Source: Flavobacteriaceae bacterium | Lineage (GTDB): Bacteria > Bacteroidota > Bacteroidia > Flavobacteriales > Flavobacteriaceae | NCBI GenBank assembly: GCA_947491985.1 | Contig: CANLLR010000008.1 | Span: forward strand, 21,093-85,092 | DNA length: 64,000 bases | Direction of reading: 5' to 3' | Shown: in pieces, positions 1 through 34,679 of the stretch | Layout: the number at the start of each line of letters is the position of its first letter | Numbering within the stretch: the stretch's first letter is position 1 | Notes under the pieces: model-generated | Told to the model about the DNA's origin: nothing | The model's database searches: none | The model's input: only the letters and a program-made list of their open reading frames with translations | Made by a program: the position numbers and the translations under genes

Positions 1-984
1 AGTTAAATGACATCCTATTCCTAATCCAAAGCAGGTTACGGCAATGGTTTGTGTAATGTCGGGAGAGTTGTTTAGGTTATAGGTTGTAGGTTGTGGGTTG
101 TGGGTTGTCGTTTTTGAAAGTGAAATGGAATTAGTAGTAAAAATCGTTTCCACTCCGAAGTTTTTGTATATGTCCACTAAAGCTGCATCTCCTTGCAAAC
201 TATTTTCTTTATAGCTTGAAAGAGTGATTTGTGTTCCGACTTTTGAAAGTGCGACTATGGAATAATAATAGGAAGCTGACGACCAATCGGACTCGATGGT
301 TATGAGTTGTCGGTTGTTGGTTGTTGGTTGTCGATTAATAACTATTTTGTTTTCAATAAATGACGAATCGATTCCAATTTCACTGAGCAAGGCCAATGTC
401 ATTTTGATGTAGGGAATGGACGTTATTTCGCCTTCCAATGTTAATTCTAATCCGTTTTCAAGTTGGGGTGCGATTAATAAAAGTGCCGAAATGTATTGGC
501 TGCTGATATTGGCTGGAAGCGCGACTTTATGCTCTGTAAGTTTTTTTCCAATGATTTTTATGGGTGGAAATCCATCGTTTTCTAGGTACGAAATTTCGGC
601 TCCGAGTTGCCGTAATGCCTCGACTAAAATCTTAATGGGACGTTTTTTCATTCGGGACGAACCTGTTAAAATTACTTCTTGTCCTTCTTGAATAGCAAAA
701 AATGCGGTGAGAAAACGCATGGCGGTTCCGGCGTGATGTACGTCGATTAATTGTGAATTGTGAATTGTGACCCGAGTTGAAGGCGAATCGAGCGAAGCTA
801 ATTGTGAATTTAAAGCATTTATCATCACTTGAGAATCATCTGAATTGGAGATATTTTCTAAAGTGATATTGGGATACAAGGCTTGGAGCAACAACAATCG
901 ATTGGTTTCGGATTTGGAACCGGTGATTTTTAATTGTGAATTGTGAATTGTGAATTGTGAGTTATGTTGTAGAAGTAGATTCAT
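1..984 (-). CDS. aroA: 3-phosphoshikimate 1-carboxyvinyltransferase (EPSP synthase), 3' end outside the window
   Basis: Minus-strand translation starts MNLLLQHNSQFTIHNSQLKITGSKSETNRLLLLQALYP and includes DVHHAGTAMRFLTAFFA and ESDWSSASYYYSIVAL; open to the window edge (NSPDITQTIAVTCFGLGIGCHLT). Confidence 0.93.
   Translation of the reverse strand, partial: MNLLLQHNSQFTIHNSQLKITGSKSETNRLLLLQALYPNITLENISNSDDSQVMINALNSQLASLDSPSTRVTIHNSQLIDVHHAGTAMRFLTAFFAIQEGQEVILTGSSRMKKRPIKILVEALRQLGAEISYLENDGFPPIKIIGKKLTEHKVALPANISSQYISALLLIAPQLENGLELTLEGEITSIPYIKMTLALLSEIGIDSSFIENKIVINRQPTTNNRQLITIESDWSSASYYYSIVALSKVGTQITLSSYKENSLQGDAALVDIYKNFGVETIFTTNSISLSKTTTHNPQPTTYNLNNSPDITQTIAVTCFGLGIGCHLT
74..108. repeat. 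Heptameric array inside aroA: aggttat/aggttgt/aggttgt/gggttgt/gggttgt
   Basis: Five consecutive 7-bp units read directly; encodes THNPQPTTYNL in frame. Confidence 0.9.
304..331. repeat. Heptameric array inside aroA: gagttgt/cggttgt/tggttgt/tggttgt
   Basis: Four consecutive 7-bp units; encodes NRQPTTNNRQL in frame. Confidence 0.9.
746..773. repeat. Heptameric array inside aroA: attaatt/gtgaatt/gtgaatt/gtgaccc
   Basis: Consecutive 7-bp units; encodes VTIHNSQL in frame; a further single unit lies near 798-810. Confidence 0.85.
936..963. repeat. Heptameric array at the aroA N-terminus: gtgaatt x3 + gtgagtt
   Basis: Four consecutive 7-bp units; encodes HNSQFTIHNSQL. Confidence 0.92.
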
Positions 985-1436: not shown

Positions 1437-3500
1437 TTATATTTTTTTTAGCACTACTTTTTCCGTTTCTTTTTTCACCACTTCGGCAAAAAATGCTTTC
1501 AATTCTGTATAATAATCGGATGAAATTATGGCTGTATTAATATCTAAAGTAACCGATAATTGGATTTGTTTTTCTTTGTTATTAATCATGTATTTTAATG
1601 AACCATTAGTATCACTCATGGGTACAGAAACAGATTGTGGCAATGTTTCAACAGCATAACCATCTGGAATTGTAATGTTTACAAGGTATTTGTCTTGTGT
1701 TGGATACGAAAAATCGATAGGATATTCTCTTTTTTCTTGTTTAAATGGATTTTCGGTTAGCGCAAAAAACAACAATGGAGAGAAATACATTTTATCTCCA
1801 ATAATCTCAACACTATTCGTGTGATTAAAATTGTAGGTTTCAACTACAGGCAACGTCAACTCTGATGTATTAGTCAAAACATATTCATTTACTTCACTAC
1901 CTTTATGTCTTTTTTCGAGTCGTTCAATTTGCGATTCTGTATTTAAATTTCCGTTTTGTGAACGAAAGACAAATCCGTTATAATCAAAATATTGTTCTTT
2001 CACTTTACCTTCAATGTTACCATCACTTGAAATCGTTGCAATAAGATTTACAACATCTTTGGAAATTGCTTTTGGCATTAAATCTACTTCGGCAGAAGAA
2101 CCGTCTTTTCGTATCATTCGTCCAACCCAATTCAAATCGCGGATGGGTAAAACATTAGGCAAGGCATAATTATTTGTGGCGTCTAAAAGAATAAGTCCGC
2201 TGTCTGTTTCCACTCCACTAATTACATAATTATATGCGGTTCTATTGGGAAATAAAGCGATTCCATTTGATCGTGTACTAAGTAAAACGGGATTAGCTTG
2301 AATTCCGGCGTGACGCAACATGGCAGTAAGCATCAAGTTGATTTCGGCTACATTTCCAGTTCCTTTTTTGTAAGCATTTTTCACTCCTTCATTACAATAG
2401 TAACCCAAAAAATCATCCCATTTTACTTTTGATTTAACGAAATTAAAGAGCGTCGCGATTTTCTCTTCATTTGAAGTTAAGCCTGTTAGGATTGTTTTCA
2501 CATCCTCTTCAAAATAGCCAGTTTTGTTAAGTTCATCTCCGAAATTTTCATTTTCATAGATATTTTTTGTTACGGTAACCCAATCGGTAGATAGTGATTT
2601 AATTGGTGAATTAGGGTATTTTAAAACAGAAAGCTCATGACAAAGTGTTGCTGTATAATTACCAATATTATTCACAAAAGCTTCGTCAATTAAAGCTGGT
2701 ATATCGCTTAGCGTGTGCGCTGTAATTTGTTCGGTAAAATCGAGTGTGTTATTAACACGATTGGTTGCAGTATTGTTACCAGCCATTCCAGCATCAAAAT
2801 CTTTGACATAAGAATAGTCAATAGTTCGTTGTTTCGAATCGACTGCTTTCTTGGGAAATAAAAACCCCTTTTGGTTTAGATTATACACAAAGTATTCTGG
2901 AATGTAGGTTTTAAATTCGGAGTAATTAACTGGAATAGAAGTTTGAAAATCCCAATCAGGTATTTTAGTGATTCTATCGGTTTTAATGAGGTATTGAAAT
3001 TCAATTATAGAACCTTCTTTAACATTCGGCATTGTAATTTTTTTTCTACCCCAAAACTTATTTATTTTTTCATCAAATTCACCATTGCTTTTCAACTTGG
3101 TTTTTTCAACTTTTCCATCGACCAAATTGTAGGTAACTGCATCAGAAAAAATGACATTCTCTTTTACACCTCCACCGATATAATATTCTTCTGAATGATT
3201 TGCCCAATCATAGCCTTCCTTTTTATAAACTTTAATTTTATACATCACCTTGACAAGCATCTGAAATCCACCATCTTGTGTGTATTCATATTTCACATCA
3301 CCTTTGTTAAATAAAATCGCTGCTGCTGCGGCACTATCTTTTGGATGTACTTTTTCACTTAACTCTTCGACTGTTACTTTTCCCAACTCATATTTTTGGG
3401 ATAGCAATTGAAAGGGTAAAAAGAGTGAAAGAATCAGTATTTTCTTTACAAAAAGACATATAAAATGGGTTTTTGGTTGTTGGTTGTTGGTTGATTTCAT
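1437..3500 (-). CDS. DUF3857 / transglutaminase-like domain protein with signal peptide
   Basis: 687 aa; secretory N-terminus, GSIIEFQYLIKTD and a transglutaminase-like region (FVKSKVKWDDFLGYYCNEGVKNAYKKGTGNVAEINLMLTAMLRHAGI). Confidence 0.8.
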   Translation of the reverse strand: MKSTNNQQPKTHFICLFVKKILILSLFLPFQLLSQKYELGKVTVEELSEKVHPKDSAAAAAILFNKGDVKYEYTQDGGFQMLVKVMYKIKVYKKEGYDWANHSEEYYIGGGVKENVIFSDAVTYNLVDGKVEKTKLKSNGEFDEKINKFWGRKKITMPNVKEGSIIEFQYLIKTDRITKIPDWDFQTSIPVNYSEFKTYIPEYFVYNLNQKGFLFPKKAVDSKQRTIDYSYVKDFDAGMAGNNTATNRVNNTLDFTEQITAHTLSDIPALIDEAFVNNIGNYTATLCHELSVLKYPNSPIKSLSTDWVTVTKNIYENENFGDELNKTGYFEEDVKTILTGLTSNEEKIATLFNFVKSKVKWDDFLGYYCNEGVKNAYKKGTGNVAEINLMLTAMLRHAGIQANPVLLSTRSNGIALFPNRTAYNYVISGVETDSGLILLDATNNYALPNVLPIRDLNWVGRMIRKDGSSAEVDLMPKAISKDVVNLIATISSDGNIEGKVKEQYFDYNGFVFRSQNGNLNTESQIERLEKRHKGSEVNEYVLTNTSELTLPVVETYNFNHTNSVEIIGDKMYFSPLLFFALTENPFKQEKREYPIDFSYPTQDKYLVNITIPDGYAVETLPQSVSVPMSDTNGSLKYMINNKEKQIQLSVTLDINTAIISSDYYTELKAFFAEVVKKETEKVVLKKI
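3473..3493. repeat. Heptameric array ttggttg x3 adjoining the start codon of the DUF3857 gene
   Basis: Three exact 7-bp units, in frame as STNNQQPK. Confidence 0.85.
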
Positions 3501-30245: not shown

Positions 30246-33200
30246 ATGAAAACAAGAAGTAAGATTAAAAATTTAAGAATTGCACTATTGACTGCATTCT
30301 TGATTATGTTCTCTTTTAGCGGTTTTTCTCAAGCTTGTACAGGCAATCAGTTAACCTTGAGCATTAAAAACTTAGCCCAAACTAGCACCACACTAGAGTA
30401 CGATGTTTTTGTTAGAAATACCGGATCTACAAGCATCAAGTTATCGGCATTGGCTGGAAATGTTCGTTTTCCTACTGGTATGTTAACAACCGGAACACTA
30501 ACAGTAGTAGAACAACCTTCTGCAACTGGAAACTTTTCTGGTATCGCTAACTTAGCTCCAAATCTTACCATTGCATCACAACAAGCAAGATGGACAAACA
30601 CACCTCCAGTTGGAGAAGCTGTTGCAATACCTTTGCCTGCCAATTCAGATTTGAAATTTGCACGATTTAGAATAACAAATACAGGCACTCCATGGAGTAA
30701 CTTTCCTGCACAATTGACACTCTCTACTGGTGGAACAGGAATATCACTTAACATAGTTACCGTATATTGTAATGGAAACCCAAATTCAACTCCAATATCA
30801 CTTGCCACTTCAACAATTGCATTAGAAAATCCAAACAGCATTGTTTTAGGACCCGCAAATATTTGTTTTTCTACAGGAAGTGCTGCTACCAATCCAGAAT
30901 CTTGTACTGGACTTAACGATGGAATTGCTATTATAACAATGTCGCCTATTCCTACTGATTTATCAGCGTCTTATATTTTAGATGGAGGAGCCGCTGTTCC
31001 TGTTACTTTAACAAGTGGTGGTGCATTTACCATTACTGGTTTATCCACAAGTGCCCATACTTTAAGCATAACGGGGAGTGGTACATGTACAACTCCTGTT
31101 TCAGTTCCGTTTACGATTGGCACTACTACGGCAGTAACTCCTACATTTTCTCAAGTTACCCCGATTTGTAGTGGCGATGTTTTGGCTGCACTTCCAACAA
31201 CTTCAACCAATGGCGTGATAGGAACTTGGGCTCCAGCATTAAATAACACCACTACAACCATATATACTTTTACTCCCGATTCTGGAGAATGCGCTACAAC
31301 AGCCACAATGACTATCACAGTAAATCCAAGCATTACTCCTACTTTTACTCAAGTAGCCCCTATATGTTCAGGAATAACTTTAACTGCTTTACCAACAACA
31401 TCAAGCAACGCTATAACAGGTACTTGGTCTCCAGCATTAAACAATACTACAACAACTACATATACTTTTACACCAGATGCTGGTCAATGTGCCACAACAG
31501 CCACTATGACCATCACGGTTAATCCAAGCACCAATGTTACAACAACTATTTCCGCTTGTGGAACCTACACTTGGAGTGAAAATGGTGTAACCTATACAAC
31601 TAGTGGTGTTTATACAATTCCAGGAACATTACAAAGTGGCATTTTCAATAATGCTTCAACTTGGGCTAGTACAGCAGCAGCAAATGGAGCTGTTGTATCA
31701 ACTAATGCTTTAAGCGGATTACCACAAACTCCTCCAGCAAGCGTAACTGTTGGTAGTACCAGTGTAACTTTCAGTGCTCCAGGCGGTTTATATTCTAGCG
31801 GAACATTTGTAGGTACGAATTCGCCAAATGAACCACTAACAATGACATTCACGCCTCCAGTATATGGTGTTGCTGGAAATTATTTTGTAACCAACATAAC
31901 TGACAACGTAATTGCTGGTACGATTACCATTGCTTATTCAAACGGAACTACAGACACCCAAGCTGTAAGTGCTGTCACTGATTATTTTGGATTTTTTAAT
32001 GGTTCATCTATTAGTAGCGTGACTATTACACCAGTTGCAACTGCACCTGCTGTGAATCGTTATGTATCAATAAATAACTTAAGTGTAGCTGTCGCGCCAG
32101 CTTGTTTTACGGAAACTTTAGATTTGACTATAATTCCTCAGGTAACTCCTGCATTTACTCAAGTCTCTCCGATTTGTTTGGGTGCTACTTTGGCTGCTTT
32201 GCCAACTACATCAACTAATAGTATTATAGGTACATGGACACCAGCTATTGACAATACAGCTACAACCACTTACACATTTACTCCAACTGTTGGACAATGT
32301 GCTACAACAGCAACAATGACCATAACGGTAAATCAACCAACAGTGCCAACATTTACACAAGTTGCACCAATTTGTTCAGGTGCTACTTTGGCAGCTTTAC
32401 CAACTACATCAAACAACGCTATAACAGGTGCTTGGAGTCCAGTAATAAGCAATACAGCTACAGCTACGTATACATTCACACCTGATGCTGGCCAATGTGC
32501 AACAACATCTACAATGACTATAGTTGTAAATCCGCTTCCAATAGTAACTTTTTCGGCTAACCCATTCCCTGTTTGTGCAGGAACGAGTTCTGTACTATCC
32601 GCGAATGTAAACAATGCTACTCCAACTATCAGTACAAGTTCACAAACATTCAGCATGAATGCTGGTCTTATTGGCACTCCTATTACAACCCCATTAACAG
32701 GTTCATTAATCAACACCATAACCAATGGGTGTGATCCTTTTACTCCAGGTTCATTAAATGGAAAAATTGCATTAATACAACGTGGCACTTGTGCTTTTAG
32801 CGTTAAAGTTCAAAATGCTCAAGATGCTGGTGCAGTAGCTGTTGTTATTTACAACAATGTTGCTGGTGTTATAATCCCAGGAGGAACCGCTCCAACTGTA
32901 ACTATACCAGTTTACGGAATAACTCTTGCAGACGGACAAGCACTTATCGCTGGAATGACAGCTAATGAAGTTAATGTAACACTCAATCCTGCTCCACCAG
33001 TTACTTACTTATGGGGTAATGGCGATACTACTCAAACTACAAATACAGGTGTTTTGAATGCGAACACCGATTTTACTGTAACAGTTACTAGTACATTAAC
33101 AGGATGTTCTTCTACTACAACAGTAACAGTACCTGTAACTCCTTTAACTGTTCCGACTTTTAATACAGTGGCTGCTATTTGTGCAGGAGAAACATTAGCA

Positions 33201-34679
33201 GCTTTACCAACAACTTCTACCAATAGTATTCTAGGAACTTGGGCACCTGCTTTAAACAATACAACAACGACAACGTATACCTTCACACCGACTCCTGTTA
33301 CGGGTCAATGTTTGGGAACTGCTACTTTGACAATTACTGTAAATCCGCTTACAACAAACGGTAGTGTAACAACAACTGCATGTGGAAGTTATACTTGGCC
33401 TGCTAATGGCGTTACATATACTACTAATCAAACTGGTATTACGTTTGTAACAGGATGTAATACGGCTACATTGAACTTAACTATTCAAGCAATTGATTAT
33501 GCTAATCTTCAATTCCCTGATACACAAACCTTATGTGAAGGACAAACATTGACTGCTTATGGACGTGTTTATGAAGCAGGAATCACGGATGTTAGCCAAA
33601 CATTACAAGGAGCTGGAATCGATGTTGAATTTGGATTAAGTACTGCAGGTGGTTCTGCTGATCCATCAACATGGACAAATTGGTCAACAGCCACTTACAA
33701 TGCTGCATCACTTTGTTACCCTTGTAATGATGACGAATACCAATTTACAACTAGCAATACATTAACTGCTGGAACTTATTACTACACATTTAGATACAAA
33801 CTTAGTTCTTGTACAACATGGCAATATGGTGGATATCCTAACGGCTTTTGGAACGGAACTACTCAAAATAGTGGTGTCCTTACAATAAATCCTGCAACAA
33901 CTAATGGTAGTGTTACTACAACCGCATGTGATACATATACTTGGCCAGCTAATGGCGTTACGTATACTAGTAGTCAAACCAATCTTACTCATGTAGTTGG
34001 TTGTAATACTGCAACTTTAAATTTAACCATTACTCCAAGTACTACAAACGGAAGCGTTACTACTACTGCATGTAATTCTTACACTTGGCCAGCTAACGGG
34101 GTTACTTATACAACAAGTCAAACCAATCTTACTAATGTAGTTGGTTGTAATACTGCAACTTTAAATTTAACCATTACCACAGCTGCAACTCCAACAGGAA
34201 GTGCTACACAATCTTTTTCAGTTGCTGCTTTAAATGATGCAACTATCGCTAATTTGGTTGTAAATCCAACTGCTGTTACATGGTATGGTTCATTGGCTGA
34301 TGCGCAATCAGGAACCAATCCTTTACCAACAACTACTGTTTTAACAAACGGCGCTACTTATTGGGCAGTTAATACTGTTGCAACATGTGCAAGTACACCA
34401 TTTGGTGTGACGGTAACTGTAACATTAGGTAATGATGATTTTGATAGTTTAAATTTTGCATACTATCCAAATCCAACTTCATCTACCTTGAACATTTCGT
34501 ACTCTAAAACGATTACTGAAATTCAAGTGATAAACATGTTAGGTCAAGTGATTTTGACGAAAAAAACAAATGAGACTGACGTTCAAGTTGACTTAGCTCC
34601 ATTTGCTGAAGCTACTTATTTTGTTAAAGTAACTTCAGATGACCAATCGAAAATCGTTAAAGTGATTAAGAGAAATTAG
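30246..34679 (+). CDS. Large repetitive secreted protein with PA domain and T9SS C-terminal sorting signal
   Basis: Signal peptide; repeats PICSGATLAALPTTSNNAITGTWSPALNNTTTTTYTFTPDAGQCATTATMTITVNP and TTNGSVTTTACGSYTWPANGVTYT; PA-like GKIALIQRGTCAFSVKVQNAQDAGAVAVVIYNN; C-terminal YYPNPTSSTLNISYSKTI. Confidence 0.9.
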   Translation: MKTRSKIKNLRIALLTAFLIMFSFSGFSQACTGNQLTLSIKNLAQTSTTLEYDVFVRNTGSTSIKLSALAGNVRFPTGMLTTGTLTVVEQPSATGNFSGIANLAPNLTIASQQARWTNTPPVGEAVAIPLPANSDLKFARFRITNTGTPWSNFPAQLTLSTGGTGISLNIVTVYCNGNPNSTPISLATSTIALENPNSIVLGPANICFSTGSAATNPESCTGLNDGIAIITMSPIPTDLSASYILDGGAAVPVTLTSGGAFTITGLSTSAHTLSITGSGTCTTPVSVPFTIGTTTAVTPTFSQVTPICSGDVLAALPTTSTNGVIGTWAPALNNTTTTIYTFTPDSGECATTATMTITVNPSITPTFTQVAPICSGITLTALPTTSSNAITGTWSPALNNTTTTTYTFTPDAGQCATTATMTITVNPSTNVTTTISACGTYTWSENGVTYTTSGVYTIPGTLQSGIFNNASTWASTAAANGAVVSTNALSGLPQTPPASVTVGSTSVTFSAPGGLYSSGTFVGTNSPNEPLTMTFTPPVYGVAGNYFVTNITDNVIAGTITIAYSNGTTDTQAVSAVTDYFGFFNGSSISSVTITPVATAPAVNRYVSINNLSVAVAPACFTETLDLTIIPQVTPAFTQVSPICLGATLAALPTTSTNSIIGTWTPAIDNTATTTYTFTPTVGQCATTATMTITVNQPTVPTFTQVAPICSGATLAALPTTSNNAITGAWSPVISNTATATYTFTPDAGQCATTSTMTIVVNPLPIVTFSANPFPVCAGTSSVLSANVNNATPTISTSSQTFSMNAGLIGTPITTPLTGSLINTITNGCDPFTPGSLNGKIALIQRGTCAFSVKVQNAQDAGAVAVVIYNNVAGVIIPGGTAPTVTIPVYGITLADGQALIAGMTANEVNVTLNPAPPVTYLWGNGDTTQTTNTGVLNANTDFTVTVTSTLTGCSSTTTVTVPVTPLTVPTFNTVAAICAGETLAALPTTSTNSILGTWAPALNNTTTTTYTFTPTPVTGQCLGTATLTITVNPLTTNGSVTTTACGSYTWPANGVTYTTNQTGITFVTGCNTATLNLTIQAIDYANLQFPDTQTLCEGQTLTAYGRVYEAGITDVSQTLQGAGIDVEFGLSTAGGSADPSTWTNWSTATYNAASLCYPCNDDEYQFTTSNTLTAGTYYYTFRYKLSSCTTWQYGGYPNGFWNGTTQNSGVLTINPATTNGSVTTTACDTYTWPANGVTYTSSQTNLTHVVGCNTATLNLTITPSTTNGSVTTTACNSYTWPANGVTYTTSQTNLTNVVGCNTATLNLTITTAATPTGSATQSFSVAALNDATIANLVVNPTAVTWYGSLADAQSGTNPLPTTTVLTNGATYWAVNTVATCASTPFGVTVTVTLGNDDFDSLNFAYYPNPTSSTLNISYSKTITEIQVINMLGQVILTKKTNETDVQVDLAPFAEATYFVKVTSDDQSKIVKVIKRN

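Follow-up and report, generated by a model that had tools for sequence, protein, structure and literature searches.

Heptanucleotide repeats are a known kind of bacterial simple sequence repeat (SSR). Arrays of the unit TAACTGA have been described from Beggiatoaceae, cyanobacteria, and some Bacteroidetes (PMC4679880). Like the arrays that we report here, these SSRs are short head-to-tail runs of seven-base units, and the units vary. They are mainly intergenic, however, and repeat units within genes favor multiples of three (PMC4679880), whereas the present arrays occupy a single housekeeping gene, aroA, at four fixed sites across the genus Flavobacterium and in many different units.

The closest counterpart comes from Nostoc, where the P6b stem-loop of the trnL intron is a structurally free loop of a conserved gene built from seven-base repeats, and one heptamer motif class (Class I or Class II) has repeatedly taken the place of the other (PMC4476775). 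P6b is RNA, however, constrained by base pairing and with only two motif classes, while the aroA sites are protein hairpins with no pairing role, 63 units, and a reading frame constraint. In Xanthomonas and Nostoc, quadruplex-forming heptamers (PMC4692102) likewise form genus-wide arrays, some of them intragenic. These are of one G-rich unit type that is under-represented in coding DNA; in contrast, the coding strand of the aroA arrays is rich in A, C, and T, and most units lack a G tract.

Rickettsia palindromic elements (RPEs) are in-frame repeat DNA tolerated at surface sites of many proteins; they are longer palindromes and add length to the protein. The heptamer arrays are not elements of this type, as they are not palindromes and mostly replace the loop in which they lie, with loops 1, 3, and 4 keeping their length. 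Only the REP-type pieces that occupy the same loops come near, and these behave like RPEs. We found no report of the AroA heptamer pattern in Flavobacterium in the open literature; subscription journals lay outside our coverage, and this absence is not proof. Within a known kind of repeat, the genus-wide overwriting of aroA hairpins is a new variant.

Results

One aroA gene carries four heptamer arrays. The window, the whole 64,000-nucleotide stretch analyzed here, covers positions 21093-85092 of contig C8 in a draft genome of the genus Flavobacterium (assembly of 2.65 Mb in 82 contigs). Its first minus-strand gene is aroA (1-984), encoding 3-phosphoshikimate 1-carboxyvinyltransferase (EPSP synthase). 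The window holds the N-terminal 328 of about 430 amino acids; the gene runs past the window edge and is complete outside it (about 430 aa, full gene in locus L023). This piece, cut by the window edge, matches the aroA equivalog model TIGR01356 at E = 1.7e-59 (201.7 bits), and the AroA of the F. aquatile relative scores 301.9 bits, above the cut-off of 287.25. The aroA alignment shows that the motifs GSKS, HAGTAMR, SSQY, SSASY, PD, KETDR, and DHRMAM are retained. Model match and catalytic motifs together identify the protein as an EPSP synthase; its best PDB sequence match is 5xwb, and the top Foldseek matches (nearest solved structures) are all EPSP synthases. Translation more likely starts at the ATG at 984 (MNLLLQ...), as in relatives, than at 1002, because the ORF start at 1002 falls inside a perfect 22-nt inverted repeat. 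The repeat (arms at 995-1016 on the plus strand and 1078-1099 on the minus strand, with 61 nt between them) lies between aroA and a MazG-like gene.

The four arrays are all read from the minus strand. TRF calls their cores at 73-108, 306-331, 749-770, and 932-960, in frame and far beyond chance, where the original prediction had placed four period-7 arrays. With imperfect edges included, array 1 (926-966, unit AATTCAC) forms hairpin 1 (HNSQFTIHNSQL) directly before the GSKSETNR helix (H30-42 of the structure model). Array 2 (746-772, AATTCAC) forms loop 2 (VTIHNSQL), with strand E83-87, directly before the HAGTAMR helix (H91-104). Array 3 (305-336, CAACCAA/CAACCGA) forms hairpin 3 (NRQPTTNNRQL), flanked by strands E219-222 and E233-235 and followed by the ESDWSSASY helix (H240-252). 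Array 4 (71-113, CAACCCA/CAACCTA) forms hairpin 4 (THNPQPTTYNL), flanked by strands E292-297 and E306-308 and followed by the PDITQTIA helix (H314-327). One open frame spans all four, reading ...TTTHNPQPTTYNLN..., NRQPTTNNRQLIT, RVTIHNSQLID, and HNSQFTIHNSQLK. The open EPSP synthase frame and the peptides had been predicted correctly, with motifs kept and the TIGR01356 match in agreement.

A REP-like piece is nested within array 2. It is about 30 bp long (771-801, minus strand; coding strand GCTTCGCTCGATTCGCCTTCAACTCGGGTC) and encodes ASLDSPSTRV, with a AATTCACAATT remnant on its far side (about 801-812). We recognized it against L024, whose plain-array loop reads NSQFTIHNSQL. Loop 3 of L297 contains a similar piece of 28-30 bp in the opposite orientation, also nested inside an AATTCAC array. 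No good second copy of the 30-bp loop 2 piece was found in the 464 kb of this genome that were read. The same genome gives two Y1_Tnp matches, both weak but above the Pfam threshold, and so has a putative Y1 transposase gene of the kind found in REP/RAYT systems.

Period-7 arrays exceed chance in the window. Exact period-7 arrays (at least 10 matching positions) number 8, against 0.2 in shuffled sequence; they are heptanucleotide SSRs in the usual sense, with head-to-tail 7-bp units longer than chance. Other periods from 2 to 11 give at most one array each, while period 14 gives 5 and period 15 gives 3. A transglutaminase-like gene of 687 aa (MKSTNNQQPKTH...) has a CAACCAA array (3466-3496) at its start codon. 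Long tandem repeats with units of 198 bp and 144 bp, at 32152-32522 and 33912-34177, are probably repeats of a large surface protein. The first bases of contig C8 (L062:17-104) are inside an AATTCAC-type array; given this contig start, such arrays probably break assembly.

The same four AroA loops carry arrays across the genus. We obtained aroA from 90 of 101 genomes drawn from Flavobacterium, and found 87 period-7 arrays in 42 of these genes; periods 4-6 and 8-13 give 0-2. Enlarging the set with other genera of the family and 80 named loci gave 180 non-redundant genes from Flavobacterium and relatives. These contain 181 period-7 arrays, 180 of which lie inside the same four hairpin/loop segments (48/47/44/41). 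Among other genera of the family, arrays occur in 5 of 29 aroA genes (seven arrays in total). Across the four loops there are 63 distinct heptamers, of which AATTCAC is the most frequent, followed by CAACC-types, ATCTGCA, AACTTCC, AACTCGC, AAAAGGG, and others. It had been proposed that tolerated loops were targeted repeatedly, and this holds: the four loops are shared across the genus, with different units in different species. Three public MAG records (L253, L287, and L315), whose titles name Bifidobacterium breve, Chitinophaga pinensis, and Limnohabitans, also carry Flavobacterium-type aroA and are probably mislabeled bins.

Arrays replace loop sequence at three of the four sites. Median lengths with and without arrays are 18 and 16 aa for loop 1, 20 and 19 aa for loop 3, and 24 and 23 aa for loop 4 (mostly 16-18, 19-20, and 22-24 aa, respectively). 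The constant length of these loops shows that the ancestral loop was overwritten. Loop 2, with medians of 12 and 6 aa, was both overwritten and enlarged. The original prediction described the arrays as inserted and proposed an alignment with the EPSP synthases of relatives; that alignment supports enlargement at loop 2 (from 6 to about 12 aa) and reveals no net insertion at loops 1, 3, and 4. In the present genome, loop 2 reaches an exceptional 21 aa because the 30-bp REP-like piece sits within its array. REP-type peptides recur in the same loops of other genes: HAELVSAS (L027, L254, L262, L271, and L272), YPELVEG (L267), and VTLSAVE (L028, L043, and L301).

The four loops occupy equivalent places in the enzyme. 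EPSP synthase is built of repeated structural units (strand-loop-strand-helix). An AlphaFold2 model of a 334-aa piece has a mean pLDDT of 75, with loops 1 and 2 partly below 50. It places all four loops directly before the GSKSETNR, HAGTAMR, SSASYY, and PDITQT helices, and loops 3 and 4 between two strands. Mapping onto the structure, which had been suggested as a check for loops, thus puts the arrays at hairpin or loop segments ahead of conserved helices, at low confidence for loops 1 and 2. Judged from the model, the array-bearing loops are equivalent positions in four of AroA's repeated units. The tip of the third unit is 16 aa in 179 of 180 genes and has no arrays; that of the sixth varies in length, sometimes with REP-type SPPLEGCP insertions.

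Array orientation follows the coding strand. No unit was found on both strands among the 180 aroA genes. The reverse strand of AATTCAC contains a stop, and that of the CAACC-types is hydrophobic. The common orientation of all four arrays, correctly noted from the window alone, is thus expected from coding.

Arrays turn over between species while the enzyme is conserved. On a tree built from aroA with the loops masked, presence or absence changed at least 25, 21, 29, and 28 times in the respective loops (103 in sum) and unit identity 43, 43, 37, and 36 times (up to 159 in total), counts that are inflated by the detection threshold and by one-base unit variants scored as changes. Close pairs show the same turnover. 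L272 and L282 (95.0% masked identity) differ over the whole of loop 2 (AACCCGC versus AACCGAC), and loop 2 is 12 aa in L032 and 6 aa in L037 (95.2% identity). Loop 3 reads AACACCC in L031 and AATTCAC in L036 (88.5% identity), and L258 and L277 (90.1% identity) differ in loops 3 and 4. Between L029 and L030, every unit of loop 2 has changed together (AACTCCC versus AACTTCC), and so units turn over in concert. The AroA body outside the loops is under purifying selection: dN/dS is about 0.08-0.22 in close pairs, and the catalytic motifs are invariant. These values rule out a decaying pseudogene, which had been named as a possible refutation. With one genome read per species, we found no aroA frame-shifted at its arrays and no intermediate or recent event within a species.

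Heptamers are common between genes and at background level within genes other than aroA. Non-coding DNA yields 101 period-7 arrays in the other-genus sample, against at most 17 for any other period, and 18 against at most 4 in the rich clade. No other microsatellite comes close to this abundance in the non-coding DNA of the genus. Some intergenic arrays form inverted pairs that would fold into long hairpins, such as L085:7912-7984/8147-8219 (73 nt, 90% complementary) and L076:9894-9930/9969-10005 (37 nt, 84%); several large Flavobacterium genomes have one such pair directly upstream of aroA. In 512 other ORFs (781 kb), we found nine period-7 arrays, level with other periods. We rejected the idea that other genes are equally rich, as about 1.45 Mb of coding DNA puts period 7 at background outside aroA. 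Of 74 AATTCACx3 arrays in the 101 genomes, 12 are in aroA, where about 0.03 would be expected. Six genomes have no such array outside aroA. aroA is a gene-specific hot spot for period-7 arrays. A pattern search revealed a second tier of genes, named by sequence recognition and usually with one site each. In-frame arrays recur at one site across species in yggS-like genes (L194, L203, and L204), leuS (L226 and L237), and hemW (L244 and L245); single cases were seen in E2 linkers, mnmE, and murG.

CAACC-type units in aroA go along with similar repeats elsewhere in the genome. Genomes with CAACC-type units in aroA have 18.3 same-kind matches elsewhere, against 1.5 in other genomes (P = 3e-6, phylogeny ignored), a difference that points to a same-genome supply. 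The association between aroA and the rest of the genome is weak for AATTCAC (P = 0.02).

Discussion

Flavobacterium repeat DNA probably replaces structurally free hairpin tips of AroA, again and again, with selection keeping only patches that preserve the frame, encode hydrophilic residues, and roughly match the old length. The data show recurrent overwriting of these tips at the DNA level, under selection on frame, orientation, and length. The four tips, each ahead of a conserved active-site helix, would be nearly free in sequence and would take up the short repeat DNA of the genome, mostly seven-base arrays and sometimes REP-type pieces. Other repeats of the genome may supply the incoming patch, copied in through template switching or short illegitimate recombination, after which slippage would homogenize the units; alternatively, a small seed may grow by slippage and then be trimmed. 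We take short-patch double illegitimate recombination (SPDIR) to be a candidate mechanism for patch replacement. Selection would then retain versions that are also stop-free. The six genomes whose only AATTCACx3 arrays are those of aroA offer no visible same-genome donor for this unit and count against this explanation. Array density is higher in the aroA loops than in non-coding DNA, and therefore freedom from constraint alone is insufficient. Seven bases do not make a whole number of codons, and loss of a single unit therefore shifts the frame. Such a loss would be lethal within the gene and free between genes, and a fitting array would thus tend to stay locked in place. Our guess is that such frame locking helps to explain the persistence of arrays in aroA.

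Slippage in place is a possible but less probable origin. A seven-base seed would grow with compensating deletions, and nothing would be copied from elsewhere. Heptanucleotides are reported to be the commonest simple repeats of 5-11 nt in most genomes, with slippage as the proposed cause (Mrazek 2007, as cited in PMC4679880). A published suggestion for the length of seven is that it corresponds to the length of DNA that the polymerase handles (Mrazek et al., as cited in PMC4679880). The concerted change between L029 and L030 fits slippage, as do genomes without any other array of the aroA unit. However, every one-unit step would shift the frame of an enzyme under purifying selection, REP-type pieces are beyond the reach of slippage and occupy the same loops, and genomes with CAACC-type units in aroA are also rich in such units outside the gene.

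A bolder form of the replacement explanation is that an active short-patch process in Flavobacterium copies repeat DNA to new places without net change in length, with the aroA hairpins as its natural recorder. We hold this only tentatively. If true, it would be a bacterial route by which non-coding repeats are turned, again and again, into the protein sequence of an essential enzyme.

Selection on the peptide itself appears unlikely. Hairpins rich in N, Q, T, and S would be favored, rather than repeats in the DNA merely tolerated. The single orientation of the arrays is consistent with this; where both strands are open (79 arrays), the more hydrophilic reading is the one used in 68. However, the 63 units encode quite different peptides, from KREKGKG to NSQFTIH, and most relatives in the family are free of arrays yet have loops of the same length.

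We also consider it improbable that four ready-made arrays were truly inserted into conserved AroA loops in this lineage, perhaps as one event that spread within the gene. Beyond the larger loop 2 of carriers, unit sharing within genes is above chance: 16 of 141 loop pairs share a unit, against a shuffled mean of 4.4 and maximum of 12, and here loops 1 and 2 share AATTCAC while loops 3 and 4 share CAACC-type units. Insertion is nevertheless largely refuted by the unchanged lengths of loops 1, 3, and 4. The spread of one event, raised in the original prediction, conflicts with the many independent changes on the loop-masked tree and with sister species that have their own units at the same four sites.

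It is highly improbable that aroA is a phase-variation (contingency) locus, with AroA switched on and off through changes in unit number: seven-base units do shift the frame by design, but the arrays are short (about 3-5 units), all stay in frame even where a gene has four of them, and AroA is a housekeeping enzyme under strong purifying selection with no frame-shifted copies among the inspected genomes. An assembly artefact of a metagenome bin, which an 82-contig draft might invite, is refuted by the presence of the pattern in five cultured Flavobacterium carriers (F. aquatile LMG 4008, F. filum DSM 17961, F. gelidilacus DSM 15343, F. cucumis DSM 18830, and F. orientale).

The aroA arrays break the rule of thumb that the units of in-gene simple repeats divide by three. 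They also carry a warning for annotation, as Flavobacterium loop peptides such as NSQFTIHNSQ, QPTTDNRQ, and HAELVSAS are repeat DNA and not domains. The replacements show which loops of the enzyme tolerate arbitrary sequence, and the copying mechanism becomes testable by strain comparison. Dozens of independent replacements at four fixed sites of a single enzyme make Flavobacterium a clean natural experiment in the conversion of repeat DNA to protein.
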